A stretch of DNA of 64,000 nt from Siphonodentalium dalli (taxonomy: Eukaryota > Mollusca > Scaphopoda > Gadilida > Siphonodentaliidae): positions 4,016,976 through 4,080,975 of the forward strand of contig CP136069.1 of the NCBI GenBank assembly GCA_032622095.1, in the 5' to 3' direction. Positions 4,662 through 40,188 of this stretch are shown in pieces. Position 1 is the stretch's first letter. Every line of letters begins with the position of its first letter. The notes below the pieces were generated by a model that worked only from the letters and a program-made list of their open reading frames with translations, ran no database searches and was not told where the DNA came from. A program made the position numbers and the translations under genes.

Positions 4662-4787
4662 CTGATTTTTCTGGTGCAGTTGCATCATTGGATTTGTCTT
4701 CCAATGCATTCTCCAGATTGAGTGTTGGTAGATTCGATTCAAATACGTCATCAACATCATCAAAGCATAACGGCATTATAGGTTTAT
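4662..4787 (-). CDS. DLGAP5: DLGAP5/HURP-like protein, exon 11 (last found)
   Basis: The minus strand has acceptor 'ataatgctttcag' before 4787 and donor CAG|GTAAAG after 4662. The exon is 126 nt, entering in phase 1 and leaving in phase 1. The first two bases (AT) complete GAT with the G left by exon 10. The peptide includes KPIMPLCFDDVDDVFESN, LNLENALEDK and ends APEKS, acidic and probably disordered. No known domain. The acceptor and first 20 or so exon bases are copied in the array just upstream (4788-5722). The donor phase requires further exons to the left, not found in 1-4661. That it belongs to this gene is inferred from strand, phase and order. Confidence 0.6.
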
Positions 4788-4990
4788 CTGAAAGCATTAT
4801 CAATATCATCACTCAAAACATACCGGCATTAAGGTTTATCTGAAAGCATTATCAATATCATCACTCAAAACATACCAGCATTAAGGTTTATCTGAAAACA
4901 TTATCAATATTATCACTCAAAACATACCGGCATTAAGGTTTATCAATATCATCACTCAAAACATACCGGCATTAAGGTTTATCTGAAATT
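4788..4990 (-). repeat. Splice-acceptor minisatellite of exon 11, first block
   Basis: About 52-bp units. Each reads on the minus strand as exon-start sequence ATAAACCTTAATGCCGGT, then intron 'gagtgatgatattgataatg' and CTTTCAG or a decayed form. The array thus repeats the intron-exon border of the adjacent exon 11. Some units have lost the CTTTCAG part (around 4940). Confidence 0.8.
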
Positions 4991-5562
4991 GTAATTCAAT
5001 TGAATATTTGTCACTAAAAACAAGCATTCTGATTGGCCGAGTGCGGCTAAATTTAGTTTTCGATTCACCGACATCGGCCGCTTCAGCGTGCATCAAATCT
5101 GAATGTAGCACGGTAAAATTTCATCGGCACAGAATGGAGTAGCGAAACAAGCACACCCGCGCGTTGTTGTCGATAGATACCGTTCATCGGCCGCTTCAGC
5201 GTGCATCAAATCTGAATGTAACACGGTAAACTTTCATCGGCGCAAAACAGAGTAGCGAAACGAGCCAACCCGCCCCACAGGAAATTGATTACGGAGCACT
5301 GAGTAACGTAATGAACAAACCCAACGATTTGTGCACGGTGACAACGGCAAAATGAAAGTCTCGATTCATGTCATGAAATTGACTAAATGATACTTTTTAT
5401 ACAGTTTTTTTGAAAATTCCTTGCTAGATTGAATTACAAGGGAGATAAATGTACCCTGTTTCGTTGTACATTCTGGGATTCGAGCATGAAAACAGTTTGT
5501 GAACTCGCCGGCATGCCGGCTCGTTCACTAACTGTTTTCATGCTCGAATCCCAGAATGTATA
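4991..5562. mobile_element. Unclassified insertion with foldback end, splitting the array
   Basis: This block interrupts the exon 11 acceptor array. It contains two near copies of a stretch beginning 'catcggccgcttcagcgtgc' (about 5072 and 5187). Near its right end there is a long hairpin in which 'acattctgggattcgagcat' and its complement flank a GC-rich loop CGCCGGCATGCCGGC (about 5469-5561). No coding frame. The borders are approximate and no clear TSD was found. Confidence 0.5.
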
Positions 5563-5722
5563 ACTCAAAACATACCGGCCTTAAGGTTTATCTGAAAGCA
5601 TTATCAATATCATCACTCAAAACATACCGGCATTAAGGTTTATCTGAAAGCATTATCAATATCATCACTCAAAACATACCGGCATTAAGGTTTATCAATA
5701 TCATCACTCAAAACATACCGGT
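5563..5722 (-). repeat. Splice-acceptor minisatellite of exon 11, second block
   Basis: Three further units of the array at 4788-4990, two of them with the intact acceptor-like CTTTCAG on the minus strand. A last decayed unit, 'accagcattatagg', is seen at 7804 beyond the next insertion. Confidence 0.75.
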
Positions 5723-7803
5723 GTGCTACGACATCTCCCCCCTGCGCATCTTCCTCCCCCGATAAACTGGTTTTACCTAGTTTATCTCCCCCCCCCGATC
5801 ATCTTCCCCCCGCCTGAATTTTTCATACCTTAACATCTATTGGCGAGATAGTCTCATTTTATTACATGTCATCGTTAACATCCATGAAAAATTTGATGAC
5901 GATCAGACTAAAGGTACGACCTGTAGCCCATGCTAAAGAATTTAGTCATACAAAGAGTAAAATCCAAGATGGCTGCTGGCGGCCATGTTTTTTGGCCGAA
6001 TGACCCCAAAATGACTCGTTCCCATCTACATGTCATTATTAACATTCATGACAAATTTTATGATATCAGACTAAAGGTACGACCTGCAGCCCATGCTAAA
6101 TAATTTAGTCATACAAAGAGTAAAATCCAAGATGGCTGCTGGCGGCCATGATTTTTGGCCGAATGACCCCAAAATTACTCGTTCCCATCTACATGTCAAT
6201 ATTATCATCCATGACAAATTTCATGATGATCAAACGAACAGTACGACCTGTGGCCCGTGCTAATGGATTAAATTTTTAAATCCAAGATGGCCACTGGCGG
6301 CCATGTTTTTTGTCCAAATGACCCCAAAATGACTCGTTCCCATCTACATTCCAATTTCACCAGCCATGACAAATTTTATTATGATCAGACTAAAGGTACA
6401 ACCTGTAGCCCGTGTTAAAGGATTTAGTCATACAAAGAGTAAAATCCAAGATGGCTGCTGGTGGCCATGTTTTTTGGCCGAATGACCCCAAAATGACTCG
6501 TTCCGATTTACATGTCATTGTTAATATCCATGACAAATTTTATGATGATCAGACTAAAGGTACGACCTGCAGCCCGTGCTAAAGAATTTAGTCATACAAA
6601 GAGTAAAATCCAAGATGGCTGCTGGCGGCCATGTTTTTGGGCCGAATGACCCCAAAATTACTCGTTCCCATCTACATGTCAATATTATCATCCATGACAA
6701 ATTTCATGATGATAAGACGAAAAGTACAACCTGTGGCCCGTGCTAATAGATTAAATTTTGAAATCCAAGATGGCCGCTGGCGGCCATGTTTTTTGGCCGA
6801 ATGACCCCAAAATGAATCGTTCCCATCTACATGTCATTATTAACATTCATGACAAATTTTATGATGATCAGACTAAAGGTACAACCTGTAGCCCGTGTTA
6901 AAGGATTTAGTCATACAAAGAGTAAAATCCAAGATGGCTGCTGGTGGCCATGTTTTTTGGCCGAATGACCCCAAAATGAATCGTTCCCATCTACATGTCA
7001 TTATTAACATTCATGACAAATTTTATGATGATCAGACTAAAGGTACGACCTACAGCCCGTGCTAAAGAATTTAGTCATACAAAGAGTAAAATCCAAGATA
7101 ACTGCTGGCGGCCATGTTTTTTGGCCGAATGACCCCAAAATTACTCGTTCCCATCTACATGTCAATATTATCATCCATGACAAATTTCATGATGATCAGA
7201 CGAACACTCCGGCCTGTAGCCCGTGCTAATGGATTGAATTTTGAAATTCAAGATGGCCACTGGCGGCCATGTTTTTTTGCCGAATGACCCCAAAATGACT
7301 CGTTCCCATTTACATGTCAATGTCAACGCCCATGACAAATTTCATAATGATCCGTCCAAAGTTACGACCTGTAGCCCGTGCCAAAGGATTTAGTCATGCA
7401 AAGAGTAAAATCCAAGATGGCTTACCGCGGCCATGTTTTATGGCCGAACGAACCCAAAATGACTCGTTTCCCATCTATATGTCATTGTTAACATCCATGA
7501 CAAATTTCATAATGATTCGATCAAAGGTAGAACCTGTAGCCCGTGCCAAACAATTTAGTCATGCAAAGAGTAAATTCCAAAATAACTGCTGGCGGCCATG
7601 TTTTTTGGCAGAACGACCCCAAAATGACTCGTTCCCATCTACATGTCAATATTAACATCCATGACAAATTTCATGATGATCAGACGAACGGTAGGACCTG
7701 TAGCCCATGCTAATGGATTGAGGGGGGGGGGGAGTTGATCAGGGCGGGGGGGGGGGGGGGGGGGGGGGGGGGGGAAGTTGATCGGGGGGGGGGAGATAAA
7801 CTG
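5723..7803. mobile_element. Element with about 160-bp core tandem repeat and C-rich/G-rich inverted ends
   Basis: The left end 'agtttatctcccccc' and right end 'ggggggagataaact' are inverted, with G/C homopolymer runs (a very long G run near 7745-7800). Between them lie roughly a dozen tandem units of about 160 bp. Each has 'ccaagatggctgctggcggc', 'gaccccaaaatgactcgttc' and a 'gatgatcagactaaaggta' stretch, and units alternate between two subtypes. Open frames such as 7314-7655 are repeat translations, not genes. The same unit makes up most of 10.4-16.5 kb. Confidence 0.7.
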
Positions 7804-7865
7804 TACCAGCATTATAGGTTTTTTATCAACATAATTAGAGAATATATAACAGTAGAATAAGTCCG

Positions 7866-8585
7866 GATATAGTGTGTCTGACATTTGCAGATTGAGGTCA
7901 CCAGAGGGTGAATTTAATGACGCTATACCACTCAGCGGGCTAGCATTACCATATTCACCCTCTGGGGACCTCATTCTGCTATGTGAAACCTACTAGGGGT
8001 CAGAAAGGTGTTCCCCAGTTGAAGTTGGTGATGTTCACCCCTTAGTTACCTCGATTATGCCTTTTATCTTCTGATAATTAGGGGATATAGAAACAGAACA
8101 GAAAGGAAAATGTAACTAAAACAATGTTAATTTGAGACTATAGATACTTCCCAGAAGAATGATGTCCACAGAGGGTGAATTTAGTGATACTAGCCCACTG
8201 GTATAACAAAACTTAATTCACCCTCTGGGGGCCTCATTTCTGCAAATGACCGGCACCCTATTCTCAGACCTGATCCCATTTAGTTTGAAATAAGGTGCCT
8301 GTCATTTACAGAATGAGGTCCCAGAGGGTGAATTTATGCAATGTGTCGTCTGCCATTTTGGGGATATAGAGAATCTAAACTAAAAAAGAAATAGAATCTA
8401 TATGAAGAAGTTTCTGGAGAAATTTGATAATAAAGAAACTTTTCAGAGAACATGAGGCCAAAGCAGAATGAGATTCCAGAGGGTGAATTTGGTGATGCTA
8501 GCCCACTATGCGGGGTAGCATCACTAAATTCACCCTCTGGGGACCTCATTCTGAAAATGACAGACACACTATTTCAAGGCTTGTT
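7866..8585. mobile_element. Cluster of 'AGAGGGTGAATTTA' foldback elements
   Basis: Several inverted copies of the palindromic module 'aatgaggtccccagagggtg' / 'caccctctggggacctcatt', separated by about 150-200 bp of related filler. The module is the same as the clean 151-bp MITE at 42507-42657. Composite copies also occur at 17284-17711 and 18900-21195. Confidence 0.7.
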
Positions 8586-8926
8586 TAGAATTCAGAGTTA
8601 AAGGTACATTCAATGGTCCCCATATCATCAGATTTTATACAACATTTCTTGAAATGCCGCTTCAGTTGACAAAAAATAATGCTGACCAGCGTCAACAAAA
8701 GTATAAAATTACCCAATAAATTTTATATATCAAGATTTTGTTCAACGAAATTTTGTATCGAGAGTATGTCAGTTGGCCAGGTGGTGAAAAATAATAGATT
8801 TTTAAAATCGATATCTGATAACTGAGATTTGATGGGTGGGTTCCTCGACTCAATTAAAACATTTTTTTTACCCCAAAGCCAAAAAATAGTAATTTAGCAA
8901 GATCAATTCGGATTGTGCATATTTAA
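8586..8926. other. No gene seen
   Basis: AT-rich intronic sequence between the exon 10 donor array and the foldback cluster. No repeat or exon recognised. Confidence 0.4.
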
Positions 8927-9116
8927 GAATTAATTAACCTACCAGGTGTTTTTCTCGTTAAGAATTAATTAACCTACCAGGTGTTTCCTCTTTAAGAATT
9001 ACTTAATCAACCAGGTGTTTTCCTCTTTAAGAATTAATTAACCTACCAGGTGTTTTCCTCTTTAAGAATTAATTAACCTACCAGGTGTTTTCCTCGTTAA
9101 GAGTTAATTAACCTAC
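8927..9116 (-). repeat. Splice-donor minisatellite of exon 10 (35 bp x about 6)
   Basis: Each unit on the minus strand reads AAAGAGGAAAACACCTG|GTAGG followed by 'ttaattaattctt'. It therefore repeats the last 17 exon 10 bases and the donor. Thirty-five is not a multiple of three, and the extension meets a stop in the repeat, so use of downstream copies would truncate the protein. Confidence 0.85.
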
Positions 9117-9184
9117 CAGGTGTTTTCCTCTTTGGTGTCCGTCTCTCCATCTCTATCATAGGACTCTTCTTCAAGATTTTTACC
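9117..9184 (-). CDS. DLGAP5: DLGAP5/HURP-like protein, exon 10
   Basis: Acceptor 'caaatttttttccag' before 9184, donor CACCTG|GTAGGT after 9117. The exon is 68 nt, entering in phase 2 and leaving in phase 1. In that frame it reads VKILKKSPMIEMERRTPKRK then TP. This is a basic, proline-directed-kinase-like segment that suits a mitotic microtubule-binding protein. The phase-2 entry matches the exon 9 donor (TG+G makes W), and the exit matches exon 11. A second open frame (GKNLEEES..) does not join its neighbours. Confidence 0.65.
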
Positions 9185-9239
9185 CTGGAAAAAAATTTGT
9201 TTTGTTACATAATGAATTGGCGACGATGGCTAGTCACGC

Positions 9240-9361
9240 TGCAGCGATCATTAGCAGGGACTGATCTGGTCCATTTTCGGGCCCGTTGTAAGGGTTTGGG
9301 TGCAGCGATCATTAGCAGGGACTGATCTGGTCCATTTTCGGGCCCGTTGTAAGGGTTTGGG
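9240..9361. repeat. Two-copy 61-bp direct repeat
   Basis: Two almost identical 61-bp copies starting 'tgcagcgatcattagcaggg' and ending 'gtaagggtttggg', 55 bp upstream of the exon 10 acceptor. Function unknown. Confidence 0.85.
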
Positions 9362-9454
9362 CGCAAACTAAACAAACAAAGACCATCAATAATGACCTTC
9401 AGTCAGATTAATGTGTTACCGTAGATTGTACCTCTGTAACTAAATTTATTACAT

Positions 9455-10200
9455 AAATGGTCCTCCTATAGGAAAATATTCATATTCAGTCATCACATAA
9501 TGGTCCTCCTATAGGAAAATATTCATATTCAGTCATCACATAATGGTCCTCCTATAGGAAAATATTCATATTCAGTCATCAAATAATGGACCTCCCACAG
9601 GTATGAAAATATTCATCTTCAGTCATCAAATAATGGACCTCCCACAGGTATGAAAATATTCATCTCCAGTCATCACATAATGGACCTCCTGTATGAAAAT
9701 ATTCATCTCCAGTCATCACATAATGGTCCTCCTATAGGAAAATATTCATATTCAGTCATCAAATAATGGACCTCCCACAGGTATGAAAATATTCATCTCC
9801 AGTCATCACATAATGGACCTCCTGTATGAAAATATTCATCTCCAGTCATCACATAATGGTCCTCCTATAGGAAAATATTCATATTCAGTCATCAAATAAT
9901 GGACCTCCCACAGGTATGAAAATATTCATCTCCAGTCATCACATAATGGACCTCCTGTATGAAAATATTCATCTCCAGTCATCACATAATGGTCCTCCTA
10001 TAGGAAAATATTCATATTCAGTCATCAAATAATGGACCTCCCACAGGTATGAAAATATTCATCTCCAGTCATCACATAATGGACCTCCTGTATGAAAATA
10101 TTCATCTCCAGTCATCACATAATGGACCTCCTGTATGAAAATATTCATCTCCAGTCATCACATAATGGACCTCCTGTATGAAAATATTCATCTCCAGTCA
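9455..10200. repeat. Minisatellite, about 38-48 bp units, about 17 copies
   Basis: Units alternate between 'aatggtcctcctataggaaa' and 'aatggacctcccacaggtat' types, each with 'atattcat..tcagtcatca'. On the minus strand every unit carries an acceptor-like TTTTCCTATAG or TTTTCATACAG before GAGG. A further partial copy lies at 16788-16880, separated by the 6-kb repeat block. Confidence 0.85.
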
Positions 10201-10267
10201 GATCAATGTTGTCAGATTGTACCTCTCAAAGGCCAGTATAAATAAATCGTATCCTATCTTATATTTA

Positions 10268-13200
10268 TATGAAAGTGTCAATGACAATGTAGCTCAACTT
10301 AGGTAGGGGAATAATTTAATGGTTGACAGTAAATGGAGGAATTAGGAAAGGAGCTAATTGAAATATCTAAGTAAGACAAAATGTAAATGTGAAGAGAGAC
10401 CAATACCCCCAAAATGACTCATTCCCATCTACATGTCAATATCAACATTCATGACAAGTTTCATAATGATCGGATCAGGGATGTGGTCTGTAGGGTGTGC
10501 CAAAGGATTTAGTGATGCAAAGAGTAAATTCTAAAATGGCCACAGGCGGCCATGTTTTTTTGCTGAATGACCCCAAAATGACTCGTTCCCATCTACATGT
10601 CAATGTCAACATCCATGACAAATTTCATAAAGATCAAACAAACAGATCAGTCTATAACCCATGCTAATGGATTTTGTAGAAATATTTAGTCATACAAAAT
10701 GGCCATTGGTGACCATATATTTTTGCTGAATGACCCCAAAATGACTCGTTCCCATCAAGAGGTCACCCCGATGATCCATATGAAGTTTGGTGATGATCAG
10801 ATGAGGGATGTGGTATGTAGGGTGTGTCAAAGTATTTAGTGATGCAAAGAGTAAAATCAAATGAAAGTGTCAATGACACTGTAGCTCAACATGGAAAGGG
10901 AATAATTTAATATATTACAGTCAATGGAGCGATTAGGAATGTGGAAAGTTGAATGTCTAATACTAGTTTATAGACATGAAGAGAAAAGTAAAATCCAAGA
11001 TGGCTGCTGGCGGCCATGTTTTCAGCCGAATGACCCCAAAATGAGTCGTTCCCATCTACATGTCATCGTTAACATCAATGACAAATTTTATGACGATCAG
11101 ACTAAATGTACGACCTGTGGCCCGTGCTAATGGATTAAATTTTGAAATCCAAGATGGCCACTGGCGGCCATGTTTTTTGTCCGAATGACCCCGAAATCAG
11201 ACTAAAGGTACGACCTGTAGCCCGTGGTAAAGGATTTAGTCATACAAAGAGTAAAATCCAAGTTGGCTGCTGGCGGCCATGTTTTTTGACCAAATGACCC
11301 CAAAATGACTCGTTCCCATCTACATGTCATTATTAACATTCATGACAAATTTTATGATGATCAGACTAAAGGTACAACCTGTAGCCCGTGCTAAAGGATT
11401 TAGTCATACAAAGAGTAAAATCCAAGATGGCTGCTGGCGACCATGTTTTTTGGCCGATTGACCCCAAAATTACTCGTTCCCATCTACATGTCATTGTTAA
11501 GAACCATGACAAATTTTATGATGATCAGACTAAAGGTACGACCTGTAGCCCGTGCTAAAGAATTTAGTCATACAAAGAGTAAAATCCAAGATGGCTGCTG
11601 GCGGCCATGTTTTTGGCCAAATGACACCCAAAATTACTCGTTCCCATCTACATGTCAATATTAACATCCATGACAAATTTCATGATGATCAGACGAACAG
11701 TACGACCTGTGGCCCGTGCTAATGGATTAAATTTTGAAATCCAAGATGGCTGCTAGCGGCCATGTTTTTTGTCCAAATGACTCGTTCCCATTTACATTCC
11801 AATTTCAACAGCCATGAAATTTTTTATGATGATCAGACTAAAGGTACGACCTGTAGCCCGTGCTAAAGGATTTAGTCATACAAAGAGTAAAATCCAAGAT
11901 GGCTGCTGGCGGCCATGTTTTTTGGCCGAATGACCCCAAAATGACTCGTTCCCATCTACATGTCATTATTAACATTCATGACAAATTTTATGATGATCAG
12001 ACAAACAGTACGACCTGTGGCCCGTGCTAATGGATTAAATTTTGAAATCCAAGATGGCCGTTGGCAGCCATGTTTTTTGTCCGAATGACCCCAAAATGAC
12101 TCGTTCCCATCTACATTCCAATATCAACAGCCATGACAAATATTATGATGATCAGACTAAAGGTACGACCTGTAGCCCGTGCTAAAGGATTTAATCATAC
12201 AAAGAGTAAAATCCAAGATGGCTGCTGGCGGCCATGTTTTTTGGCCGAATGACCCCAAAATGACTCGTTCCCATCTACATGTGATTATTAACATTATTGA
12301 CAAATTTTATGATGATCAGACTAAAAGTAGGACTTGTAGCCCGTGCTAAAGGATTTAGTCATGCAAAGAGTAAAATCCAAGACGGCTGCTGGCGGCCATG
12401 TTTTTTGGCCGAATGACCCCAAAATGACTCGTTCCCATCTACATGTCATTGTTAACATCCATGACAAATTTTATGATGATCAGACTAAAGGTACGACCTG
12501 TAGCCCGTGCTAAAGGATTTAGTCATACAAAGAGTAAAATCCAAGATGGCTGCTGGCGGCCATGTTTTTGAGCCGAATGACCCCAAAATGACTCGTTCCC
12601 ATCTACATGTCATTATTAACATCCATGAAAAAATTTATGATGATCCGACTAAAGGGACGACCTGTAGGCCGTGCCAAAGAATTTAGTCATGTAAAGAGTA
12701 AAATCTAAGATGGCTGCCGGTGGCTATGTTTTTAAGCCGAACAACCCCAAAATTACTCGTTCCCATCTACATGTCAATATTAACATCCATGACAAATTTC
12801 ATGATGATCAGACAAACAGTACGACCTGTGGCCCATGCTAATGGATTAAATTTTGAAATCCATGATGGCCGCTGGCGGCCATGTTTTTTGTCCGAATGAC
12901 CCCAAAATAACTCGTTCCCATCTACATGTCAATATTAACATCCATGACAAATTTCATGATGATCAGACAAACCGTGCAACCTGTGGCCCGTGCTAATGGA
13001 TTGAATTTTGAAAACAAAGATGGCCACTGGTGGCCATGTTTTTTGTCCGAATGACCCCAAAATGACTCGTTCCCATCTACATTCCAATTTCAACAGCCAT
13101 GACAAATTTCATGATTATCAGACTAAAGGTACGACCTGTAGCCCGTGCTAAAGGATTTAGTCATACAAAGAGTAAAATCCAAGATGGCTGCTGGCGGCCA

Positions 13201-13724
13201 TGTTTTTTGCCCGAATAACCCAAAAATGACTCATTCCCATCTACATGTCATTGTTAACATCCATGACAAATTTTATGATGAACTGACTAAAGGTACGACC
13301 TGTAGCCCGTGCTAGAGGATTTAGTCATGCAAAGAGTAAAATCGAAGATGGCTGCTGGCGGCCATGTTTTTTGGCCGAATGACCCCAAAATTACTCGTTC
13401 CCATCTACATGTCAATATTAACATCCATGACAAATTTCATGACGATCAGACGAACAGTACGGCCTGTAGCCCGTGCTAATGGATTGAATTTTGAAATCTA
13501 AGATGGCCGCTGGCAGCCATGTTTTTTTTCCGAATGACCCCAAAATGAATCATTCCGGTACAAATGTTGATGTCAACAGCTATGACAAATTTCATAATGA
13601 TCCGATCAAAGGTACGACCTGTAGCCTCTATTGTTGACGCCTTACGTACACACGCACACACGGACGACGGACGACAAAGCCATGGCAATAGCTCAAACTT
13701 TACAAAGTAAAGTTGAGCTAATAA
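10268..13724. mobile_element. Element(s) with about 160-bp core tandem repeats, ended by TTGAGCTAA
   Basis: Two near-identical start regions (10268 and 10858: 'gtcaatgacaatgtagctca' or a close variant) lead into about 18 tandem units of the 160-bp repeat. The block ends with 'ggacgacggacgacaaagcc', then a hairpin (AGCTCAAACTTTACAAAG / complement) and GAGCTAA. The opening TAGCTCAAC and closing GTTGAGCTA are inverted. This organisation, core tandem repeats inside a non-autonomous element with a 3' hairpin and CTAA, resembles the Helitron-like satellite elements described in bivalves. The assignment is inference. Confidence 0.6.
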
Positions 13725-16556
13725 GGCTGCCAGTGGCCATATTTTTTGGCCAAATGCCCCCAAAATAACTCGTTCCCATCTAGAGGTCACCCCGATGATC
13801 CATCTGAAGTTTGGTGATGATCGGATCAGGGATGTGGTCTGTAGGATGTGTCAAAGGCAGGGTTCATACACCTAGCTGAGAGTAAAATTCCATAACTTTT
13901 CCATACTTTTTCAAGACTTTCGGACAAATTTTCCAAAAATTCCATAACTTTTCCATACCTCCTACCTAGCTAAATAATGAGGAAGATATATAAATTTCCA
14001 GGTTGTTTAAACAGAGCACACATATACGTTAGTTAAAATGAGCCCTTTATCTGCAAAGATGCATTTAACTAATTAAGCTGATATGAACAATAAATCATAA
14101 ATGGTTTGCATCTGCAACAATTATCGGCCTTGACACCCTGAGTCTATGATTTCTAAAATCATTGGGAAAAAAATTACGATTTTCCGGTTATGGATCACGA
14201 TTTATTTCGAACAAGGCAATACAACGATTAAAACTATATTTTCACACTATAAAATGGTGCTCTCGGATAATTTTGTCGCCAAATATATTCAGTAACATCA
14301 GGTAACATTGGTTAATTTAGAGAGAGTACGCATTGATAGAATTGTTTTAGGTCCGTTCGATTCGCGTTCTGTTATTGCGTATATAAATGAGTTCCGGTAA
14401 GGGAGACAATTTGTGTTTCGGCATACCGTAAAACGTGTAGTTCCAACTATAACTACGGAGATGGTATCGTAAGCTTATACGATAAGAACGGAAAGTAACA
14501 GCGTTAATTTACCTAAGAACACGGCCTTGGGATATTCCATGACTTTTCAAGACCTTGAATCTCAGGGTAGCTTATTTTCAAGACTTTTCCCATAGTAGGG
14601 TGAAAAAAGGTCCCATTTTCCAGACTTTTCAAGGGTATTGAATCGAAATTTTCGAATTCCATAACTTTTCCAGGATTCCAGACCCGCATACGAACCCTGA
14701 AAGGATTTAGTGATGCAAAGAGTAAAATCCAAGATGGCCACCAGACGCCATGTTTTTTGGCCGAATGATCCTAAAATGACTCGTTCCCATCTACATGTAA
14801 ATGTCAACATTCATGACAAATTTAATGATGATCACACAAACAGTACGGCTTGTAGCCCGCGCCAATGGATTTAATTTTGAAATCCAAGATGGCCACCAGG
14901 CACCAGACGCCATGTTTTTTGGCCGAATGACCCCAAAATGACTCGTTCCCATCTACATGTCAATGTCAACATTCATGACAAATTTCTTAAAGATCATACA
15001 AAAGATACGACCTGTAGCCCGCGCCAAAGTATTCAGTGATGCAAAGAGTAAAATCCAAGATGGCTGATGGCGGCCATGTTTTTTGGCCAAAGGACCCCAA
15101 AATGACTCGTTCCCATCTAGAGGTCGCTCCGATGATCCATATGAAGTTTGGTGATGATCGGATCAGAGATGTGGTCTGTAGGATGTGTCAAAGGATTTAG
15201 TGATGCAAAGAGTAAAATCCAAGATGGCCACCAGCGGCCATGTTTTTTGGCCGAATGATCCTAAAATGACTCGTTCCCATCTACATGTAAATGTCAACAT
15301 TCATGACAAATTTAATGATGATCACACAAACAGTACGGCTTGTAGCCCGCGCCAATGGATTTAATTTTGAAATCCAAGATGGCCACCAGGCACCAGACGC
15401 CATGTTTTTAGGCCGAATGACCCCAAAATGACTCGTTCCCATCTACATGTCAATGTCAACAATCATGACAAATTTCTTAAAGATCATACAAAAGATACGA
15501 CCTGTAGCCCGCGCCAAAGTATTCAGTGAGGCAAAGAGTAAAATCCAAGATGGCTGATGGCGGCCATGTTTTTTGGCCAAAGGACCCCAAAATGACTCGT
15601 TCCCATCTAGAGGTCGCTCCGATGATCCATATGAAGTTTGGTGATGATCGGATCAGAGATGTGGTCTGTAGGATGTGTCAAAGGATTTAGTGATGCAAAG
15701 AGTAAAATCCAAGATGGCCACCAGCGGCCATGTTTTTTGGCCGAATGATCCTAAAATGACTCGTTCCCATCTACATGTAAATGTCAACATTCATGACAAA
15801 TTTAAAGATGATCACACAAACAGTACGGCTTGTAGCCCGCGCCAATGGATTTAATTTTAAAATCAAAGATGGCCACCAGGCACCAGACGCCATGTTTTTT
15901 GGCCGAATGACCCCAAAATGACTCGTTCCCATCTACATGTCAATGTCAACATTCATGACAAATTTCTTAAAGATCATACAAAAGATACGACCTGTAGCCC
16001 GCGCCAAAGTATTCAGTGATGCAAAGAGTAAAATCCAAGATGGCGGCCATGTTTTTTGGCCAAAGGACCCCAAAATGACTCGTTCCCATCTAGAGGTCGC
16101 TCCGATGATCCATATGAAGTTTGGTGATGATCGGATCAGAGATGTGGTCTGTAGGATGTGTCAAAGGATTTAGTGATGCAAAGAGTAAAATCCAAGATGG
16201 CCACCAGCGGCCATGTGTTTTTTGGCCGAATGATCCTAAATTTACTCTTTCCCATCTACATGTAAATGTCAACATTCATGACAAATTTTATGATGATCAC
16301 ACAAACAGTACGGCCTGTAGTCCGCGCCAATGGATTTAATTTTGAAATCCAAGATGGCCACCAGCGGCCATGTTTTTTGGCCGAATGACCCCAAAATGAC
16401 TCGTTCCCATCTACATGTCAATGTCAACATTCATGACAATTTTCATAAAGATCAGACCAAAGATACGACCTGTAGCCCGCGCCAAAGGAAATTGTTGACG
16501 GACGACAGATGCCAAGCCATGGCAATAGCTCAAACTTACAAAGTAAGTTGAGCTAA
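13725..16556. mobile_element. Second tandem-repeat element, interrupted by a transposon
   Basis: Further 160-bp-type units, here organised as a higher-order repeat of about 490 bp (starts near 14700, 15190 and 15670). The block ends with 'gacggacgacagatgccaag' and the same hairpin plus GAGCTAA. The higher-order copies differ by only a few bases, so this expansion is recent. It is interrupted by the insertion at 13858-14699. Confidence 0.65.
13858..14699. mobile_element. CAGGGTTC-ended transposon (842 bp), TSD AAAGG
   Basis: Ends CAGGGTTCATACAC and ..CATACGAACCCTG, flanked by a perfect 5-bp AAAGG duplication (13853-13857 and 14700-14704). Removing the element and one AAAGG restores 'gtgtcaaaggatttagtgat', which is present intact in neighbouring repeat units (for example near 15187), so the window holds filled and empty sites. 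Subterminal 'ttccataacttttcca' repeats resemble those of 640-1554. No transposase remains. Confidence 0.9.
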
Positions 16557-21580: not shown

Positions 21581-21593
21581 AATAAAATAATAC

Positions 21594-21650
21594 CATTCTT
21601 CAGGTGAATATAATAAAATAATACCATTCTTCAGGACTCTTCAACTCAGA
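21594..21650 (-). repeat. Duplicated exon 9 donor (31 bp x 2)
   Basis: The minus-strand segment CCTGAAGAATG|GTATTATTT occurs twice, 31 bp apart, giving two identical potential donors (exon end 21625 or 21594). Reading on from the first meets an in-frame TGA at 21600-21602 before the second donor. Confidence 0.75.
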
Positions 21651-21917
21651 AGGTTGACACATATCGGTCTTCCGTCTTTTTTTGGAGCTTCGTTTCGTCG
21701 ATGATGGTGCCATATCTGAGGAAGGAACAATGAAATCATCCATTGCTGAAATGGTCTTCCTCGACGGAGCTGATTTAGGGGTCTTTGATTTACGACTAGC
21801 ATCATGGGAGGCGACACTAGGAGTCACATCGACATTTGGAGATGGTTTATATGTAGGTGTCCTTACATCTTCTATGATGAGATCAGCAGTCTTATTCACA
21901 AGTGAGTCATTGCTGTC
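21625..21917 (-). CDS. DLGAP5: DLGAP5/HURP-like protein, exon 9
   Basis: Acceptor 'tcttatattttag' before 21917. The exon is 293 nt, phase 0 to phase 2. It begins DSNDSLVNKTADLIIED, continues SRKSKTPKSAPSRKTI and 'STKRSSKKRRKTDMCQPSEL', and ends SPEE with TG of the next codon. It is basic, rich in S/T-P, R-K and K-x-S sites and predicted disordered. The donor AATG|GTATTA is weak but is supported by its tandem duplication and by phase agreement with exon 10. If it is not used, translation stops at 21600 after 'YYFIIFT' and this would be the last exon. Confidence 0.7.
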
Positions 21918-22084: not shown

Positions 22085-23660
22085 GGATTTTAGTTACATA
22101 AGGCATTCTAAGCTGGATTTTAGTTATCTAAAGGCATTCTAAGCTGGATTTTAGTTATATAAAGGCATTCTAAGCTGGATTTTAGTTATCTAAGGGCATT
22201 CTAAGCTGGATTTTAGTTATATAAAGGCATTCTAAGCTGGATTTTAGTTATATAAAGTAGTGATGAGCCGATAATCGGGAACGACAATCGGAATCGGCCG
22301 ATTGTGGCCCATCGGATGACAATCGGTACTCGGGTTTGAACATCGGGATTTCCGATTGTCTAAATAATAAATGAGTGCTTGTTTTTCTTCAATAAACTGT
22401 TTTAAATATGACGATGTTTTGTTGAATAAATGACCAGTAAACATGGGGAAAGTGATACCAAGCACAAACTTGATATAGATACATGTCTTCTGCAATACCC
22501 CGGCCGTACCTGTGTCTATGTTTGAACAATATATTAGTGGGGATCGCCGGGAAGCACGTGACACTTTGGGTTAGAGTGAGGCAGCGAGCATGACGCTGTG
22601 ATTGCGCATAATAATTCATTAATTATTGGCATACCGAACAGTCGTTTCAGTGGATTGATTTCTTTAGCATTGTGATGTACACAAGTAACACAACGTACAT
22701 ATCATGGGACTCATGTACGCCCATAGGTAACTTTATGGTTCGTCAACATGTAGACATTTTGATTTATGTATGTCAAACTATCAAAAATCAAAATGTATGC
22801 ATACGCAGTACAACAAAGCTATCTATATAGTACATACAGCGTAACAGGTATAAACACTACTATAGAAATCGAAAGTGCATGTCACGTGACTTTAAATAGT
22901 TGAAGACAATGTCATTCCATCCAGTCATCATCGTGTGACGTCACGTATATGTCACCACAAATGATTATTATGATGACCACGCCGAAATCGAATCGTGTCT
23001 GTGAAATTGACATGAACATGGTGTAACTTGCAACTAGTTCAGTCGGCTCATTCCTTTGATGTGATGTCTTTGAATTGGGATCAAAGAAAAATGCCGTTTG
23101 ATGAATTGTTATCAAAAACGGACCATGGACATGTCGTCATGCACGTGGCTACATCAAACTTTCAAAAAATTTGTTGTGGAATAGCCTAGAATACATGGGT
23201 ATGTTGCCTGTATTCGATCACTAGTCTGCCCATACCATGCACCTATCTACTTACCCAAACATATACTTTATATGTATACAGTGTACTGGCATATTACTAC
23301 GTTTGTTGCTTGGTTCTAATTCTAAGTATTATATAACACATATAACATATTCTGCTATAATTATTGAAATAATCGGAATCGGCCGATTGTGATCTCAAAT
23401 AATCGGCAATCGGCGCATGGCTCTATTTGACAATCGGCTCATCACTAATATAAAGGCATTCTAAGCTGGATTTTAGTTATATAAAGGCACGCTAAGCTGG
23501 ATTTTAGTTACATAAGGCATTCTAAGCTGGATTTTAGTTATCTAAAGGCATTCTAAGCTGGATTTTAGTTATATAAAGGCATTCTAAGCTGGATTTTAGT
23601 TACATAAGGCATTCTAAGCTGGATTTTAGTTATATAAAGGCATTCTACGCTGGATTTTAG
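22085..23660. repeat. 31-bp minisatellite, split by a hAT insertion
   Basis: Units read 'ggcattctaagctggatttt' then 'agttatataaa'. About six copies lie at 22085-22257 and seven at 23448-23660. It lies in the intron between exons 8 and 9. Confidence 0.9.
22258..23447. mobile_element. hAT-type transposon (1190 bp), TSD ATATAAAG
   Basis: Ends TAGTGATGAGCCGAT and ATCGGCTCATCACTA, with several inverted 'aatcggaatcggccgattgt' motifs near both ends. It is flanked by the 8-bp ATATAAAG (22250-22257 and 23448-23455), which is part of the minisatellite unit it entered. No transposase frame, so non-autonomous. Confidence 0.9.
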
Positions 23661-24020: not shown

Positions 24021-24757
24021 CTGATGAACCTCCTCAGATTCAACAACGCTCTCCATGGCAACAGACTTTCTCTTCGACCTCGGCGTCTTCTTATTGTCAA
24101 GCTTTTCGTCACCTGCTTGAGAACGCCTTCTAGTACTGCGTCTCAATTTCGCTGGACTTTCCTCATCAACAAGTTCTGTTTTCACAGACGATAAACGTCT
24201 GCTTTTTCTCGTCTTTGGTGTGTTAACTATTGGTGTAGCAATTTGATCTGACGCATCATCGCAGTCTGATAGCAAGAGATCTACACGAGACTCCTTCACA
24301 GCTTCATCATTAAACATAGAAGATTTGTCTTCTTCTGAATTAGCATCAAGAGTCAGCGGTGAAGGTTTACTACTAGCTACCATACAATTACTAACTGTCG
24401 ATTCGAAGAAACTTTCAATATTTGATTGAGAACTTTCCATTGGCACACATGAAGTTTCGTTTGGCACGTTAGCCTGTAGAGTAACATCTGATGCCGCTTC
24501 GTCCGTCGGAGAGCTAGCTGAATCTGGCTGGCTGTTGTCACTGACGTTGTGAACTGACTTCGATGGGACGTTAGAAGACTCAACAGGATTTTGTGGCGAC
24601 ACCACTGGATCATGACACGACTCACCAAACACAGTCTTGTCGATGTCTTGGTTGGTTGAGTTGGACTCAATGCCGTCTGTCGTGCTGTCGGCTTCAGAGA
24701 CTAGAACGGATTTGGGAAACTTGACGAAGTTTGATTTGGAGCCATCAGCCGAGTTTT
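24021..24757 (-). CDS. DLGAP5: DLGAP5/HURP-like protein, exon 8 (large)
   Basis: Acceptor 'ttcttcacatttgttgacag' before 24757 and a strong donor CATCAG|GTGAGA after 24021. The exon is 737 nt, phase 1 to phase 0, open throughout (about 246 codons). The N-terminal half is acidic and S/T/N-rich (ENSADGSKSNFVKFPKS at the start). The C-terminal end is strongly basic: TPKTRKSRRLSSVKTELVDE, AKLRRSTRRRSQAG, KKTPRSKRKSVAME. Such R/K-S/T clusters suit microtubule binding and Aurora- or CDK-type phosphorylation, and may include nuclear localisation signals. No folded domain is visible. The codon pattern and long open frame make this the most secure exon. Assignment to DLGAP5 rests on its position between motif-bearing exons. 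Confidence 0.85.
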
Positions 24758-30740: not shown

Positions 30741-30779
30741 TCATACATACAGACAGAAGTTCCGAAATATATAGAAGAT

Positions 30780-32010: not shown

Positions 32011-32016
32011 AGGGTT

Positions 32017-32716
32017 AACTTACCTGGATTAACACTGAGCGATGCTGTTAACTTACCTGGATTGACACTGAGCGATGGTGTTAAGAGTGATGCCGTTAAC
32101 TTACATGTACTTGGATTGACACTGAGCGATGCTGTTAACTTACTTGTACTTGGATTGACACTGAGCGATGCCGTTAACTTACATGTACTTGGATTGACAC
32201 TGAGATATGCTGCTAACTTACCTGGATTGACACTGAGCGATGGTGTTAACTTACCTGGATTGACACTGAGATATGCTGCTAACTTACCTGGATTGACACT
32301 GAGCGATGGTGTTAACTTACCTGGATTGACACTAAGAGATGCTGTTAACTTACCAGGATAGACACTGAGATATGCTGCTAACTTACCAGGATAGACACTG
32401 AGATATGCTGCTAACTTACCAGGATAGACACTGAGATATGCTGCTAACTTACCAGGATAGACACTGAGATATGCTGCTAACTTACCAGGATAGACACTGA
32501 GATATGCTGCTAACTTACCAGGATAGACACTGAGATATGCTGCTAACTTACCTGGATTGACACTGAGCGATGGTGTTAACTTACCAGGATAGACACTGAG
32601 ATATGCTGCTAACTTACCTGGATTGACACTGAGCGATGGTGTTAACTTACCAGGATAGACACTGAGATATGCTGCTAACTTACCAGGATAGACACTGAGA
32701 TATGCTGCTAACTTAC
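32017..32716 (-). repeat. Splice-donor minisatellite of exon 7a (33 bp x about 21)
   Basis: Each unit on the minus strand reads 'tcgctcagtgtcaatccag' or a variant, then GTAAGTTA, repeating the last exon 7a bases plus its donor. Unit lengths are 33 bp, a few 39 bp and one 15-bp remnant, all multiples of three. The exon 7a frame stays open through the whole array as an 11-residue repeat (GKLAAYLSVYP, GKLTPSLSVNP). By my count all 21 copies keep the hexamer GTAAGT. Confidence 0.9.
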
Positions 32717-32772
32717 CAGGATTGACACTGAGCGATGCTGTTGCATGTCTGGAGACAATTGGAGTGGAGCTT
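32717..32772 (-). CDS. DLGAP5: DLGAP5/HURP-like protein, candidate exon 7a (56 nt)
   Basis: Acceptor 'atgctctgattattacag' before 32772, donor AATCCTG|GTAAGTTA after 32717. The exon is 56 nt, phase 2 to phase 1. It reads SSTPIVSRHATASLSVNP, with GG+A making G at the start and G+AA making E into exon 8. S/T-rich like its neighbours. Followed at once by the donor array, the same arrangement as exons 5, 9 and 10, which supports it being a true exon. Incompatible in frame with microexon 7b. Confidence 0.55.
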
Positions 32773-33100: not shown

Positions 33101-34215
33101 GAGACCTAGGATCAGATTGATGTTACTCAGTTGAAGTTGGTGATGTTCACCCTTTAGTCACCTCAATTATTAATTTTATCTTCTGCAAATTAGGGGATAT
33201 AAGAAACTGTATAAAAGCGAAAAAAGTAATTAAAGCTATTAATGGGTTGCAAATTCAAAATTCTTAAGATTTGGTAACTGAGATAATAAAATAAAATATT
33301 GTCTGAAATAGTCACCATATCTAACAATGCCAACAGTATATTTAATTTCCCAATTGTAACCCCAGATACACTCTCACAGCATTGATTTTTAATATATTTC
33401 CTGCGGGAAACATATATTTAATTTTGAAGGTACTCAATCCGTTCATACGGTCCCCATATCATCAAGATACAACAACAACAACATTTCTTCAAAATACGCT
33501 TTAGTTATCAGAATCGAATAACTCAGGACAAATTTGTGTCCACGGACCGACGGATGACGGACGGACAAGCTGACTCCAGTATACCCCCCCCTAACTTCGT
33601 TGCGGGGGGTATAATTAAATCCTCCCTCCCACACTAATCTGAAATCAAGAGCATCGCATAGGCATGCCAAATAGTGTTGAAACGATTAATCGACTAATCA
33701 AAATCGACGCGATTATTAAATTAGTCGAGTCCGAAATCAGCTAGTCGACTAGTCGGAACACACCCACCACCATTATGCCATCGCGAAAGCAGTGCCATTG
33801 CTGCCGTTACCGAATTACTGGACAATTTAAACAATCAGGCTATCGAAATTATACACAATCACAATTAGCTTGTTAAAGCCTTCTTTGTTGTCACTTTGAT
33901 GCGATAACTGCTTTCAGTACTTGGTGGTCATGCACGAGCGCGAAACCCAATGACCTCAACTCAATGTATTCGTCGGCGCCGCGGCGGCTTACTCTTTGAA
34001 GTTGAGATGGCCGGCTTTGATAATCAACTTCAAAGAATCAGCACCTATCGCAACCGTGTCTATTTCGGCGTGACGGAATTGATCTGAGTGATAACTGGTC
34101 AACGTGTTTGCAGGTGTGCAGGACTAAACTTCAATCAAGTTAGTTGCGAGGTGACATTATTAAGTTTTAAGTTTAATAACAAGTCCAATATATTATAGTT
34201 TATTGAAGCACTATA

Positions 34216-34342
34216 CCCCGCTGGACAAAACAAGTGTCCACTTAACCGCGGTGCGGTTTGCGTTGTCACCGCAGCCGAACTGCAACAACACCGCGGCTCC
34301 ACCGGCTGACTGCCGTTCAGCCGCGGTGTACTTGCCGTTCTT
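34216..34342. mobile_element. Left piece of a GC-rich TA-flanked MITE
   Basis: Begins TA|CCCCGCTGGACAAAACAAG and matches the left end of 45007-45381 and 47537-47911. Breaks off after 'gtgtacttgccgttc'. Inside the 33672-38167 hAT. Confidence 0.75.
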
Positions 34343-36599: not shown

Positions 36600-36834
36600 A
36601 GAAAAAAAGACGATACAAACCAGGAATCTAACCCCGGTGTACTTGCCGTTCGGCCGCGGTGTACTTGCCGTTCGGCCCCGGTGTACTTGCCGTTCGGCCG
36701 CGGTGTACTTTCCGTTCGACCGCGGTGTACTTGCCGTTCGGCCGCGGTGCTCAGCCGCGGTTCCACAATGTGACACCGCGGCCGAACGGCAAGTACACCG
36801 CGGTGGCATTGGACACTTGTTTTGTCCAGCGGGG
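36600..36834. mobile_element. Right piece of a GC-rich TA-flanked MITE
   Basis: Contains five tandem copies of the 22-bp unit 'cggtgtacttgccgttcggc' and ends 'cttgttttgtccagcgggg' + TA. Starts at 'aaaaaaagacgatacaaacc', the point where intact copies continue. Together with 34216-34342 it makes one element with a 2.26-kb gap. Confidence 0.75.
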
Positions 36835-38369
36835 TATGTCAGTATACCTTTAAAGTTTATTTGTAAAATTGTGTGATATTTTGTACAACCACCACATGCA
36901 TCAACTGACGCATGGGTGAGCGTATACGATCGCACGTTCTAGATATATTGTATTATAGATATAAATATAAAGCCAACCAGCGGTCGGCCATGCTATGCAT
37001 CGAATAGCGTCGCGTATTTCTAACTAAACTGGCGAGTCACTTCAGAAATCCCACGTCGTTTATGGGCTGTGTTTGTGAAAAATTACAATGTATTTTAGCA
37101 CCTCAAACTTAAATCCTTCGAGGAATTGGGCGGTGACAAAGCTGTTCCCAGAAACGTAATCTGGATGACGCAAATTCCTGGAATCGGGCTAAATATAGAA
37201 CTTACGACATCGCATTGAAATGTACTATTAACATCGCCGGTCTGCGCAGTTTTATTTCTGAAACTGACACGATCGATTGTGTATTCGGGGACTCGCGAGT
37301 AAAATCGTATATATTGCATATATATTTACAATGTACCATGCACGAGAGACAATTATGTACGCGATCAAATCAAACAGTGAAAACACGTGCGTTTTGGCGG
37401 GAAAATGACTGTCCGTGATTAAGCTATGTCATATCGTGACCTTGCAATGAATACAAGGAACAACATTATGTACGCAATGCATGGCCCATTTTTAATATAT
37501 GCGGACTCTATATATACAGGGAACTTTACCACATTCAGTGTCCGATATATGTACATGACATCTGCGAGCATAAAAGGCTTGTACGCACTACAGCTGTTAT
37601 AACATTTATTTTGTAACTTCATGTACGCCCGTTTGTGAAGTCAATCGGTGACAAACACACTGGGCAAGTTCGAAAACAACGATGTTCGATTGTATGTAAG
37701 AACCGGTACGGCCTCGGTAGACCATACCATATCAATTTTAAAGGAACATTTTTACACAAAACATATAGAATAATGCACCTGTTTCTGATTGTTGCACGCG
37801 CTTGGAACCACTCCGTAATCTGTAGCGTTTCCGCGATTGATCAGGTGTTTGTCACCACCGTTTAGATACATACATCAACTGGATGGTAATTTGATTGTCA
37901 TAAAACATCATATACCTGAGACAAATTAATAACCTATTAACCTTCAGTGATATTAAGCTAAATAATCACGGCAAATAGTGTTAAATCACGTCTTGCTTCG
38001 CGTTCGAATATGCAAAGTTGGTTACTGGTACTCAAAACAAACGGCAAATTATATACGTATATGAGCACAAAACGGTAAGTTTCGGAAGGGTTCCGACTAG
38101 TCGACTAGTAGTCGATTCCCTCTGGCAACTAGTCGATTCCTCAAAACCACTAATCGTTTCAACACTAATGCCAAAATATGCCAATAGTAATTTCAACAAA
38201 GGGCCATAAAATTGAAAGCGGAACCAAAATTCGAACTTGTATTTTGGACAAGTAAACCCATATACCAAATTTCATTCCATTCAGTTTAAACTTATTAAAT
38301 TCATCATTCGGAAATAAAAAATCAAATGGACTGACAGATGGACCAAAAACATATGTCAAAATAACTCAC

Positions 38370-38577
38370 CCTCTCGATGGTTGAGACCCAAAAATAGATG
38401 ACTGGTCCAAGAAATGTTCCGCGCTGCTGGGACTGAGAGGATTGAAGGCAAACGACTGGATGTTTGACGGAGCGGTGAATGTGAAGTCGGCCGGAGCAAA
38501 CGATTCTCCCCTCTTCTTCGTTATTCTTGATGAATCAAACTGTTTCTTCTTTGATGCCGTTTCTGTTGTTTTTGCTT
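38370..38577 (-). CDS. DLGAP5: DLGAP5/HURP-like protein, exon 6 with SFAP motif
   Basis: Acceptor 'acattttaaatgtttcag' before 38577, strong donor CGAGAGG|GTGAGT after 38370. The exon is 208 nt, phase 1 to phase 2. It reads KKKQFDSSRITKKRG, then ESFAPADFTFTAPSNIQ, then FNPLSPSSAEHFLDQSSIF. From memory, HURP proteins carry a matching SFAPKDF-x-F motif followed by a P-[LM]-[ST]-P segment and a final hydrophobic F-L stretch. DLGAP1-4 do not have this. This is the best identity clue for the gene. HURP binds microtubules at kinetochore fibres near chromosomes under RanGTP/importin-beta control and is an Aurora A substrate. Those roles are known for the family, not shown here. Confidence 0.88.
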
Positions 38578-38741
38578 CTGAAACATTTAAAATGTAAAAT
38601 ATTTAGTGACGGAACAGATTAACTAATTATTCAGCCAATATTTGGGGAATTGGAGTCGTCAAATAAAACCGTATATCAGTGATGGTAATAGAGTAATAAT
38701 GATTATCATCATGAAATGCCAGATGTCAGACACTCTACAGT

Positions 38742-38885
38742 AATGCTCTAAATAATTGACTCCTTAACCACAGCAGAATTATGGGTAACTTTTCAAGATT
38801 TAGTCGGATTTATGGCTTGTTGCCATTCATCGGAAAGTTCTCACCGAGAGATGAATGGCAACAAGCCATATTTCCGACATCAAAG
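38742..38885. mobile_element. TACAGTAATG foldback MITE, partial
   Basis: Starts 'tacagtaatgctctaaataa', includes 'ccttaaccacagcagaatta' and the arm 'ggcttgttgccattcatc' with its complement 'gatgaatggcaacaagcc'. The far end is lost. Same family as 40882-40983, 47083-47278 and 48010-48115. Confidence 0.7.
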
Positions 38886-39199
38886 ATTGCCGCATGTCTG
38901 CCGCGTTGGCAAAAGACACATTGTCACACTGTCTAGCAGTAACAGGTGTTACGTAATGAGATGAGCACATGCTATACACATGTTCTGCATACTGCTTTCT
39001 TTGTATTTTGTTCACAGCACCGATCAAAACTATTTGTTGTAAAATCAAAAGCCATTCCTCAGACGAAGATGACCTCATGCTGGATTCGAATAATGGATAA
39101 TTTTGTATGCATTGGATAGGGAATAAATACACTGATAATAACTATTAATAATTCAACTGTTTTATTTTTAATTAAACATTTCTTTGATCTTGTTTTGGG

Positions 39200-39830
39200 G
39201 AAAAGGTTCTGCACTGTTCGTCGCAGCTACTGCCAAAACTCACCTGTGTTCATGGTTGTAGCTCAGAACCCCCCCCCCCCCCAATGACATACCGATGTAT
39301 ATTTCACATTTTGAGGGGAAATATAGTTGATGAGAAAGTTGGGACTTATTGACATAAATCTACGGTAAATTAAAATGCGAGAGGCTGATTACTACTAAAT
39401 ATTCGCCTGACAAAGCGTTACCCAAGATGGTGTATACAACTGTGCACGTGGTCCGTGCTACTGATCATGTCTTATTCAGGCACTAAGTGTAGGATTCCTT
39501 GCAATCTGTTAATCGTCAGTGTCTGTGATTGCTCGTCCTGTGTAAAAAGAAGACTGAGCTAGGTCTGTGGATATATTTTGTGACCAATATAAGTCAAGTT
39601 TGGGGAGGGGAATGAGGACGCTGGACGGCCGGCCTAACGCAGTAGCGGAAACCCTGCGTTACAACCACGTTGCGTTAACAGGAGGTCCGTGTTGATGGTA
39701 AATTCTCAACACGGTTCCAACGCGGTCGAGAGGGACACTTATTATGGGAGGATCTGTACTACAGATCTTGACCATTGTAGTTCTGTTACCTGGTCAGACA
39801 CCAACGTAACTATAATGGTTATATAGAACA
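39200..39830. other. Intron, no gene seen
   Basis: Non-repetitive intronic DNA apart from a short C run near 39270. No exon-like structure on either strand. Confidence 0.35.
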
Positions 39831-39845
39831 GAATGCTGAGCCTAC

Positions 39846-40052
39846 CTTTCATTGATTGATTTCTTGTTCGTCGACCCACTTGTGACGGTGGTGTAGACTT
39901 TATACTAAGCCTACCTTACATTGATTGATTTCTTGTTCGTCGACCCACTCATGACGGTAATGGAGACTTTATACTAAGACTACCTTTTGTTGACTGTTCT
40001 CTTGATTGTCGACCCACTCTTGACGGTGGTGTAGACTTTATACTAAGCCTAC
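39846..40052 (-). repeat. Splice-donor duplication of exon 5 (69 bp, 3 extra copies)
   Basis: Exon 5's end and donor recur at exact 69-bp steps (potential exon ends 40053, 39984, 39915, 39846), each ..AAG|GTAG or a close variant. Using the second donor adds 23 codons in frame (RLSIKSTPPSRVGRQSREQS..). The third would include a TGA. The copies look like duplicated exon sequence now left in the intron. Confidence 0.88.
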
Positions 40053-40188
40053 CTTTCGTCGATTGATTTCTTGTTCGTCGTGACGGCGGTGGAGACTGTG
40101 GTTTTAGTGGTTGTCTGGCCTTACGTGACGGTGGTGGAGGCTGTGGTTTTACTGGCTGTCTGGTCTTACTCGAACCAGGTTTTGACGC
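40053..40188 (-). CDS. DLGAP5: DLGAP5/HURP-like protein, exon 5
   Basis: Acceptor 'tgtctttttcag' before 40188, donor GACGAAAG|GTAGGC after 40053. The exon is 136 nt, phase 0 to phase 1. It reads ASKPGSSKTRQPVKPQPPPP and SRKARQPLKPQSPPPSRRTR, then NQSTK. It consists of two copies of a proline/basic repeat (TRQPVKPQPPPPSR / ARQPLKPQSPPPSR), so it has itself grown by tandem duplication. Proline-rich basic stretches like this are typical of microtubule-binding disordered regions. Confidence 0.8.

Follow-up and report, generated by a model that had tools for sequence, protein, structure and literature searches.

Splice-site minisatellites at eight exon borders of a DLGAP5-like gene in the scaphopod Siphonodentalium dalli

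Results

Tandem Arrays at Exon Borders

Eight of the 31 exon borders of a DLGAP5-like gene in the scaphopod mollusk Siphonodentalium dalli carry splice-site minisatellites, that is, tandem arrays whose unit holds the splice site and overlaps the exon border. The gene lies on the minus strand of a 64-kb stretch of contig CP136069.1 (C9:4016976-4080975; "the window", within which all positions lacking a chromosome name are counted), ~4 Mb from the end of the 215-Mb chromosome C9 in an assembly of 2.23 Gb in nine chromosome-size contigs. It is cut by the left edge of the window, and the 60 kb beyond that edge was added to the analysis. Arrays occur at 6 of 16 donors and 2 of 15 acceptors (7/31 borders by Tandem Repeats Finder (TRF) alone), and all arrays noted for the gene are on the minus strand as well (Table 1). 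Those at donors form series of 2 to 21 tandem copies with periods of 31 to 75 bp, some in frame and some out of frame. Their units take 11 to 72 bases from the exon; the intron share, by reading, is scattered from ~3 to 42 bases.

The initial annotation of the window had listed four 69-bp copies at the exon 5 donor, about 21 of 33 bp at exon 7a, two of 31 bp at exon 9, six of 35 bp at exon 10, and several of ~52 bp at the exon 11 acceptor, together with internal duplications of 39 bp in exon 4 and ~45 bp in exon 5. All of these were recovered, and its description of each unit as an exon edge plus a splice signal is supported for separate arrays on many junctions. At exon 5, three donors read GTAGGC and one GTAGTC. 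The exon 7a units comprise sixteen of 33 bp, three of 39 bp, and one of 48 bp; this array was cut at GTAAGTT, so the word is present in each unit by construction, and the 48-bp unit looks like two fused copies with one donor lost. The exon 9 junction is spanned by a 24-bp exact repeat (11 exon and 13 intron bases). In the exon 10 array, GT is kept in five of the six copies, the sixth reading TTGATTAAG. The exon 11 acceptor array is in two blocks, split by an inserted dispersed element that has at least 40 near full-length copies elsewhere (92-94% identity among the best 40 of 2529 candidates).

The annotation had also held that these repeats are not one satellite that has spread. Six units (those of exons 9 and 15 were left out) were joined as one query and searched against the genome, returning 8 candidates, all scored. 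This locus accounts for 36 of the 44 matches. The other 8, at C5:206045520-206046223, are all to the exon 7a unit, at 84-90% identity, and point to a second 7a array in a place with no GKAP match. The six searched units are mutually unrelated and, the C5 array of 7a excepted, locus-specific. The claim holds for the unrelatedness of these six, and has to be amended for the second array of the 7a unit.

Gene Model and Identity

The spliced model has 16 coding exons and encodes 1071 aa in one open frame. Exons were read by eye, with exons 4-11 joined in a single frame; exons 1, 2, and 4-14 were read without a phase-requiring scan, and all fit one frame. Exons 3, 15, and 16 came from a scan combining splice signals, codon use, and required phase, so phase agreement was imposed on them and is independent evidence for the remaining exons only. 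In tblastn, a human DLGAP5 segment located a GKAP domain left of the window on the same strand (E=1.7e-13), giving exons 12-14, compared with 7.6e-7 for a DLGAP1 segment; both queries are approximate and the comparison is one of pairwise matches. The spliced protein matches Pfam GKAP (PF03359) over residues 732-902 with 81.1 bits (cut-off 27; E=1.4e-22), and a search of the whole genome with the PF03359 profile gave matches at exon 13 (29.9 bits) and at one place on C7. The conserved GKAP stretch is encoded by exons 13 and 14, both of which bear arrays. The single frame and the GKAP domain in the spliced protein bear out the exons of the initial annotation, and these matches assign the locus to a DLGAP5/HURP-like cell-division gene of the GKAP/SAPAP family.

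The basic stretch of exon 2, RMEKLAKWKQQRDVQREEEKRKNKKPFQAGL, resembles by eye the N-terminal microtubule-binding basic helix of HURP. A PDB search with exons 1-2 of the protein gave no match, and Pfam searches with exons 1-2 and exons 4-11 separately gave no family above cut-off (one chance-level match, E=0.18). With an early 712-aa model, none of 8000 scored candidates from a protein database had E<=0.001. A candidate exon after exon 16, ending ...SDLICFSPM (C9:3994926-3994754), did not continue the phase of exon 16 and was rejected; the C terminus of the model is provisional.

Reading Frame across the Arrays

At every array, it is the shortest exon form that matches the frame of the model. 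A stop lies within seven codons past the first donor at exons 9, 10, and 14. The exon 5 array is open for one unit more: donor 2 would lengthen the exon in frame, and a stop follows in the third copy. All unit lengths at exon 7a (33, 39, and 48) are multiples of three, and the array is open in the frame of the gene through 20 units; at exon 15 the units between donors are open, and the 75-bp array repeats the motif FDAGLFMVVSPVK in frame. Because the unit is a multiple of three at exons 5, 7a, and 15, use of some later donors would extend the protein without a frameshift, with predicted gains of 23 aa at exon 5, mostly 11-aa steps at exon 7a, and 25-aa steps at exon 15. The acceptor periods of 52 and 79 bp mean that earlier acceptors would shift the frame, and use of another copy would do so at five of the eight arrays, all but those of exons 5, 7a, and 15.

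Borders and Neighboring Intron in the DLGAP5-like Gene

Within the gene span, 10.1% of the sequence is minisatellite (period 20-100 bp); in 12 interior windows of 10 kb, taken at round positions, the figure is 2.7%. The repeats themselves are far beyond chance. When arrays were shifted round the gene, 3.1 border overlaps were expected and 7/31 were observed by TRF (P=0.049), with P=0.042 and 0.028 at stricter scores and an excess of 2.2-2.8 times over the three cut-offs. A uniform test, which scores any 24-base window that recurs within 130 bp, was positive at 9/31 borders and at 50/155 intron positions 60-220 bp off (P=0.83), flank positions inside one array not being independent of each other. 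The ninth border is the exon 4 acceptor, counted through the internal duplication of exon 4. All tests on this gene are post hoc, since the pattern was the reason for choosing it, and their P values are flattering.

Similar Arrays in Chaperonin and Kinesin Genes

Control exons were obtained from Pfam matches in the same genome: 40 of 53 chaperonin (CCT) and 40 of 123 kinesin matches, hand-chosen and taken with 300-bp flanks. Since edges were taken from the domain matches, the denominators include some that mark the end of a domain, not an exon border. Donor arrays were found at CCT loci L044, L047, and L054 and at kinesin loci L078, L094, and L109, the last with an acceptor array as well. Two-copy acceptor duplications at CCT loci L034, L045, and L057 came from a more sensitive rescan, L045 and L057 having been missed by TRF. 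At L057, ~47 bp of exon start and acceptor recur 155 bp upstream as a spaced, not tandem, copy. L109 and L113, kinesin paralogues near the end of C7, have the same pair of arrays on the two borders of one exon; the units, of 30 and 32 bp, stand in a different order at the two loci, which indicates turnover. L113 was excluded from the counts as a paralogue of L109. Array units are 23-47% GC.

Border duplication recurs within two CCT genes. One, on C2 (20.44-20.48 Mb; L034, L047, and L054), has three such borders in the 7 exons fetched, and the other, on C4 (24.38-24.40 Mb; L044 and L045), has two in 4. The DLGAP5-like gene is thus not the sole gene of this kind. Its eight borders exceed what the initial annotation had counted when it singled the gene out for having so many; the implied uniqueness is lost.

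By reading, and with near-end exons aside, 5/79 donor-side and 3/79 acceptor-side edges are duplicated (8/158, ~5%). With TRF alone the figure is 3.75% of edges for CCT and kinesin alike, which compares with 2.3-5.1% coverage of the flanks. The uniform test on the 80 exons gave 9/160 edges versus 47/800 flank positions (odds ratio 0.95, P=1.0); here it misses L078 and L057 and includes L059. By this test, borders in these genes show no excess over flank positions. L059, where the copy ends short of the donor, and the L112 acceptor, where the repeat lies upstream of the AG, were left out of the counts by reading. Choosing control borders by a splice matrix proved poor, with 43/80 donors passing the cut-off and L044, L078, L094, and L109 lost; the L034 acceptor, positive under that choice, proved real on rescan. 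A donor-over-acceptor excess (P=0.03 by TRF) was withdrawn when the TRF-missed acceptor copies were included (13/98 versus 6/97, P=0.15).

Distance to Chromosome Ends

L109 is 2.3 Mb from the end of C7, and two kinesin exons lie ~2.1 Mb from the start of C6, L112 with a 47-bp donor array and L111 without one. Counted by reading, 3/6 edges of these three near-end exons are in arrays, against 8/158 for the remaining 79 (P=0.004). Exons with border duplications tend to lie closer to the ends of chromosomes, whether the test is made by exon (P=0.002) or by gene (P=0.015); the near-end loci are 2-4 Mb from the ends, and some affected exons are 20-88 Mb away.

Other Repeats and Features

Introns 9 and 10 contain arrays of a 164-bp repeat, also with 483-490 bp periods (5863-7719, 10407-10855, 11196-13626, and 14700-16489), and a similar 165-bp repeat adjoins the C7 GKAP match in L029. 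In intron 8, one 31-bp unit occurs in two arrays ~1.2 kb apart (22085-22257 and 23448-23660), as if split by an insertion. The unit of a 43-bp array near exon 10 (9451-10200) contains acceptor-like words (TTTTCATACAG followed by GAGG at the putative junction) and is tied to no recognized exon. A large minus-strand open frame upstream of exon 1 (60478-62169) is, by eye, like the reverse transcriptase of a long interspersed nuclear element.

Table 1. Predicted exons, tandem arrays, and associated features of the DLGAP5-like gene
Feature	Position	Strand	Remarks
Coding exon 1 (MSSVDSKYSDFHK...)	56551..56773	-	phase 0 to 1; ATG, donor CAG/GTAATC
Exon 2	48124..48293	-	phase 1 to 0; basic stretch
Exon 3	44859..44970	-	phase 0 to 1; sole candidate over cut-offs in phase-requiring scan
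Exon 4	42263..42384	-	phase 1 to 0
Exon 4 internal tandem duplication	42299-42373	-	39 bp
Exon 5	40053..40188	-	phase 0 to 1
Exon 5 internal duplication	40079-40169	-	45 bp
Exon 5 donor array	39839-40080 (TRF)	-	69-bp units, four donors at 40052, 39983, 39914, 39845
Exon 6 (FAPADFTFTAP..FNPLSPSSAEHFL)	38370..38577	-	phase 1 to 2
Exon 7a	32717..32772	-	phase 2 to 1; required for frame between exons 6 and 8
Exon 7a donor array	32014..32742	-	21 GTAAGTT donors between 32716 and 32023, 20 units
Exon 8	24021..24757	-	phase 1 to 0; border array absent
Exon 9	21625..21917	-	phase 0 to 2
Exon 9 donor duplication	21581..21635	-	31-bp period, two donors ATG/GTATTA; absent from TRF list
Exon 10	9117..9184	-	phase 2 to 1
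Exon 10 donor array	8922..9133	-	donor CTG/GTAGGT; 35-bp units, ~6 copies
Exon 11	4662..4787	-	phase 1 to 1
Exon 11 acceptor array, proximal block	4755-4983	-	acceptor TTTCAG/AT; 52-bp units
Inserted dispersed element splitting exon 11 array	4985-5562	.	~577 bp, ~124-bp terminal inverted repeats
Exon 11 acceptor array, distal block	5563-5696	-	52-bp units; beyond inserted element
Exon 13 acceptor array	C9:4014090-4014526	-	79-bp units; left of window
Exon 14 donor array	C9:4012370-4012794	-	61-bp units, seven donors; left of window
Exon 15 donor array	C9:4009516-4009956	-	75-bp units, five donors; left of window

Discussion

The arrays are probably the product of a genome prone to short tandem duplication, most strongly so near chromosome ends, in which intron-side copies are tolerated. 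Tandem duplication of 20-80 bp pieces would be frequent, some duplications would span an exon border, and each border-spanning copy would carry an exon edge and a splice signal. With the extra copies falling on the intron side, the original product would remain available: under exon definition, which pairs the two nearest sites across the exon, the exon-proximal copy, upstream-most in a donor array and downstream-most in an acceptor array, should still be spliced and the normal mRNA kept. The remaining copies would be decoys under weak selection, nearly neutral and multiplying by slippage or unequal exchange, and splicing would have to choose one site among rows of near-identical decoys. The finding that borders are duplicated as often as neighboring intron fits near-neutral growth. 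The high density at this locus is probably to be ascribed to its position toward a chromosome end combined with the high duplication rate of the genome. The choice of the exon-proximal copy, the weak selection, and the high duplication rate are what we infer from genomic sequence.

Several observations weigh against this account. A donor excess over acceptors would have been welcome to the idea of decoys, and it now stands at P=0.15. In the DLGAP5-like gene, the uniform test is positive at 14/240 deep-intron positions (>1 kb from exons), and both the borders (9/31, P=0.0003) and the near flank (50/155) differ from these. Within 300 bp of a border, minisatellites make up 29% of the sequence, compared with 7.2% in the rest (P=0.004; at 600 bp, P=0.002; range across tests 0.0015-0.0085). 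Repeats gather around exons in this gene, and the junction itself is not singled out; of the recurrent growth at exon-intron borders proposed by the initial annotation, the clustering around exons stands and an enrichment of junctions over intron 60-220 bp away does not. Such clustering is not predicted by plain random placement unless young transposons dilute the deep introns, which could be the source of part of it. The association with chromosome ends drops to P=0.014 by exon and fails by gene (P=0.12) when the near-end exons are removed, and the near-end association depends on three loci, two of which (L111 and L112) were picked by position once the arrays of L109 were known.

These same data give some room to a process linked to splicing or transcription, for instance through breakage where R-loops form or where U1 binds the donor, that would aim tandem growth at exons or their borders. 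The near-exon clustering and the overlap of borders beyond that of shifted arrays speak for it, as may a comparison of words on C1 (up to 250.6 Mb), where, among the matches listed, three tandem copies of AGGTAAGT form 16 distinct clusters against 2 for the dinucleotide-matched AAGTAGGT. That comparison is suggestive only. Total counts of three tandem copies show no excess of AGGTAAGT over its reversed word (2268 versus 2417; AAGTAGGT, 367 versus 1308), and the comparison is confounded because satellites dominate the raw counts and single-word frequencies are known for 264 kb only (17 versus 6). Junctions are no richer than intron 60-220 bp away, in the controls or in the DLGAP5-like gene, and the donor units reach into the intron to widely varying extents. 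We think an exon-linked or aimed mechanism of this sort unlikely. Slightly less so, yet still well short of even chances, is the general form of the idea, in which exon neighborhoods, junctions included, would be true hotspots of tandem growth in this lineage through a splicing- or transcription-coupled lesion. If that were true, a large share of donors and acceptors genome-wide would carry rows of copies, and the spliceosome would be under genome-wide decoy pressure.

Selection might instead keep in-frame donor rows as a protein-length ladder at exons 5, 7a, and 15, a proposal drawn from the open frame and unit lengths at 7a and the in-frame motif repeated at exon 15. It is improbable: the frame is lost in five of the eight arrays, most differences among the main 7a unit variants are, by reading, amino-acid changes, and the invariance of the donor columns among the sixteen 33-bp units of 7a is not significant (P=0.08). 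Inflation of tandem copies by the assembly would be a concern for any single assembly, and we rate it very improbable here, as copies differ in ordered ways (the 7a variants, with 39- and 48-bp units), a dispersed element sits within the exon 11 array, and the paralogous loci L109 and L113 carry related but different arrays. Least credible, and already contradicted, is an error in the exon model that would reduce the arrays to ordinary intronic minisatellites containing splice-like words. Such an error would accord with the lack of a homologous protein among the 8000 candidates scored for the first 712-aa model and with the imposed phase of exons 3, 15, and 16. Against it, exons 1, 2, and 4-14 fit one frame without the phase scan, GKAP scores 81 bits over the spliced protein, array-bearing exons 13 and 14 encode its conserved stretch, and control arrays occur on CCT and kinesin exons.

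Minisatellites with splice sites have precedents. The human 6-16/IFI6 minisatellite provides multiple splice donors (Turri, Cuin and Porter 1995, NAR 23:1854; as cited in PMC4526556, PMC3618361, and PMC2572611), downstream repeat units serving as donors in three mRNA species (PMC4526556). The likeness lies in a minisatellite that supplies multiple donors; judging from those citing accounts, that case concerns one junction in one gene and is backed by RNA, whereas here eight junctions, donors and acceptors, are known from the genome. In human duplicated genes, minisatellites averaging 30-bp units and 4 copies include some at exon-intron boundaries that alter splicing (De Grassi and Ciccarelli 2009, PMC2812944). 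The location is shared, but that set consists of primate-specific duplicated genes identified by copy comparison, whereas the present cases are in DLGAP5-like, CCT, and kinesin genes, with many of them in a single gene. In the Rogers AGGT model of intron gain and its potato RdRp case (as described in PMC4974935), a tandem duplication likewise runs across an exon-intron border and takes along splice signals that were already present. The product there is a new intron, whereas the present copies look like decoys within an intron that was there before; no new intron is claimed, and the gene model requires none between duplicated copies. Richness toward chromosome ends also recalls human subtelomeres, where GC-rich minisatellites cluster (as summarized in PMC3486850), but the units here are not GC-rich, their loci are megabases from the ends, and some exons are far more distant. 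No report of many junctions of one gene as splice-site minisatellites was found in a literature search outside which most subscription papers lie.

A splice-site minisatellite has been known since 1995 and a human set since 2009; the DLGAP5-like gene brings eight such junctions together. Along with the ~5% of interior CCT and kinesin edges, these junctions offer a natural test of how one site is selected in splicing from near-identical neighbors, and the arrays are a system for asking whether tandem duplication at borders contributes to changes in protein length or to the gain of introns.

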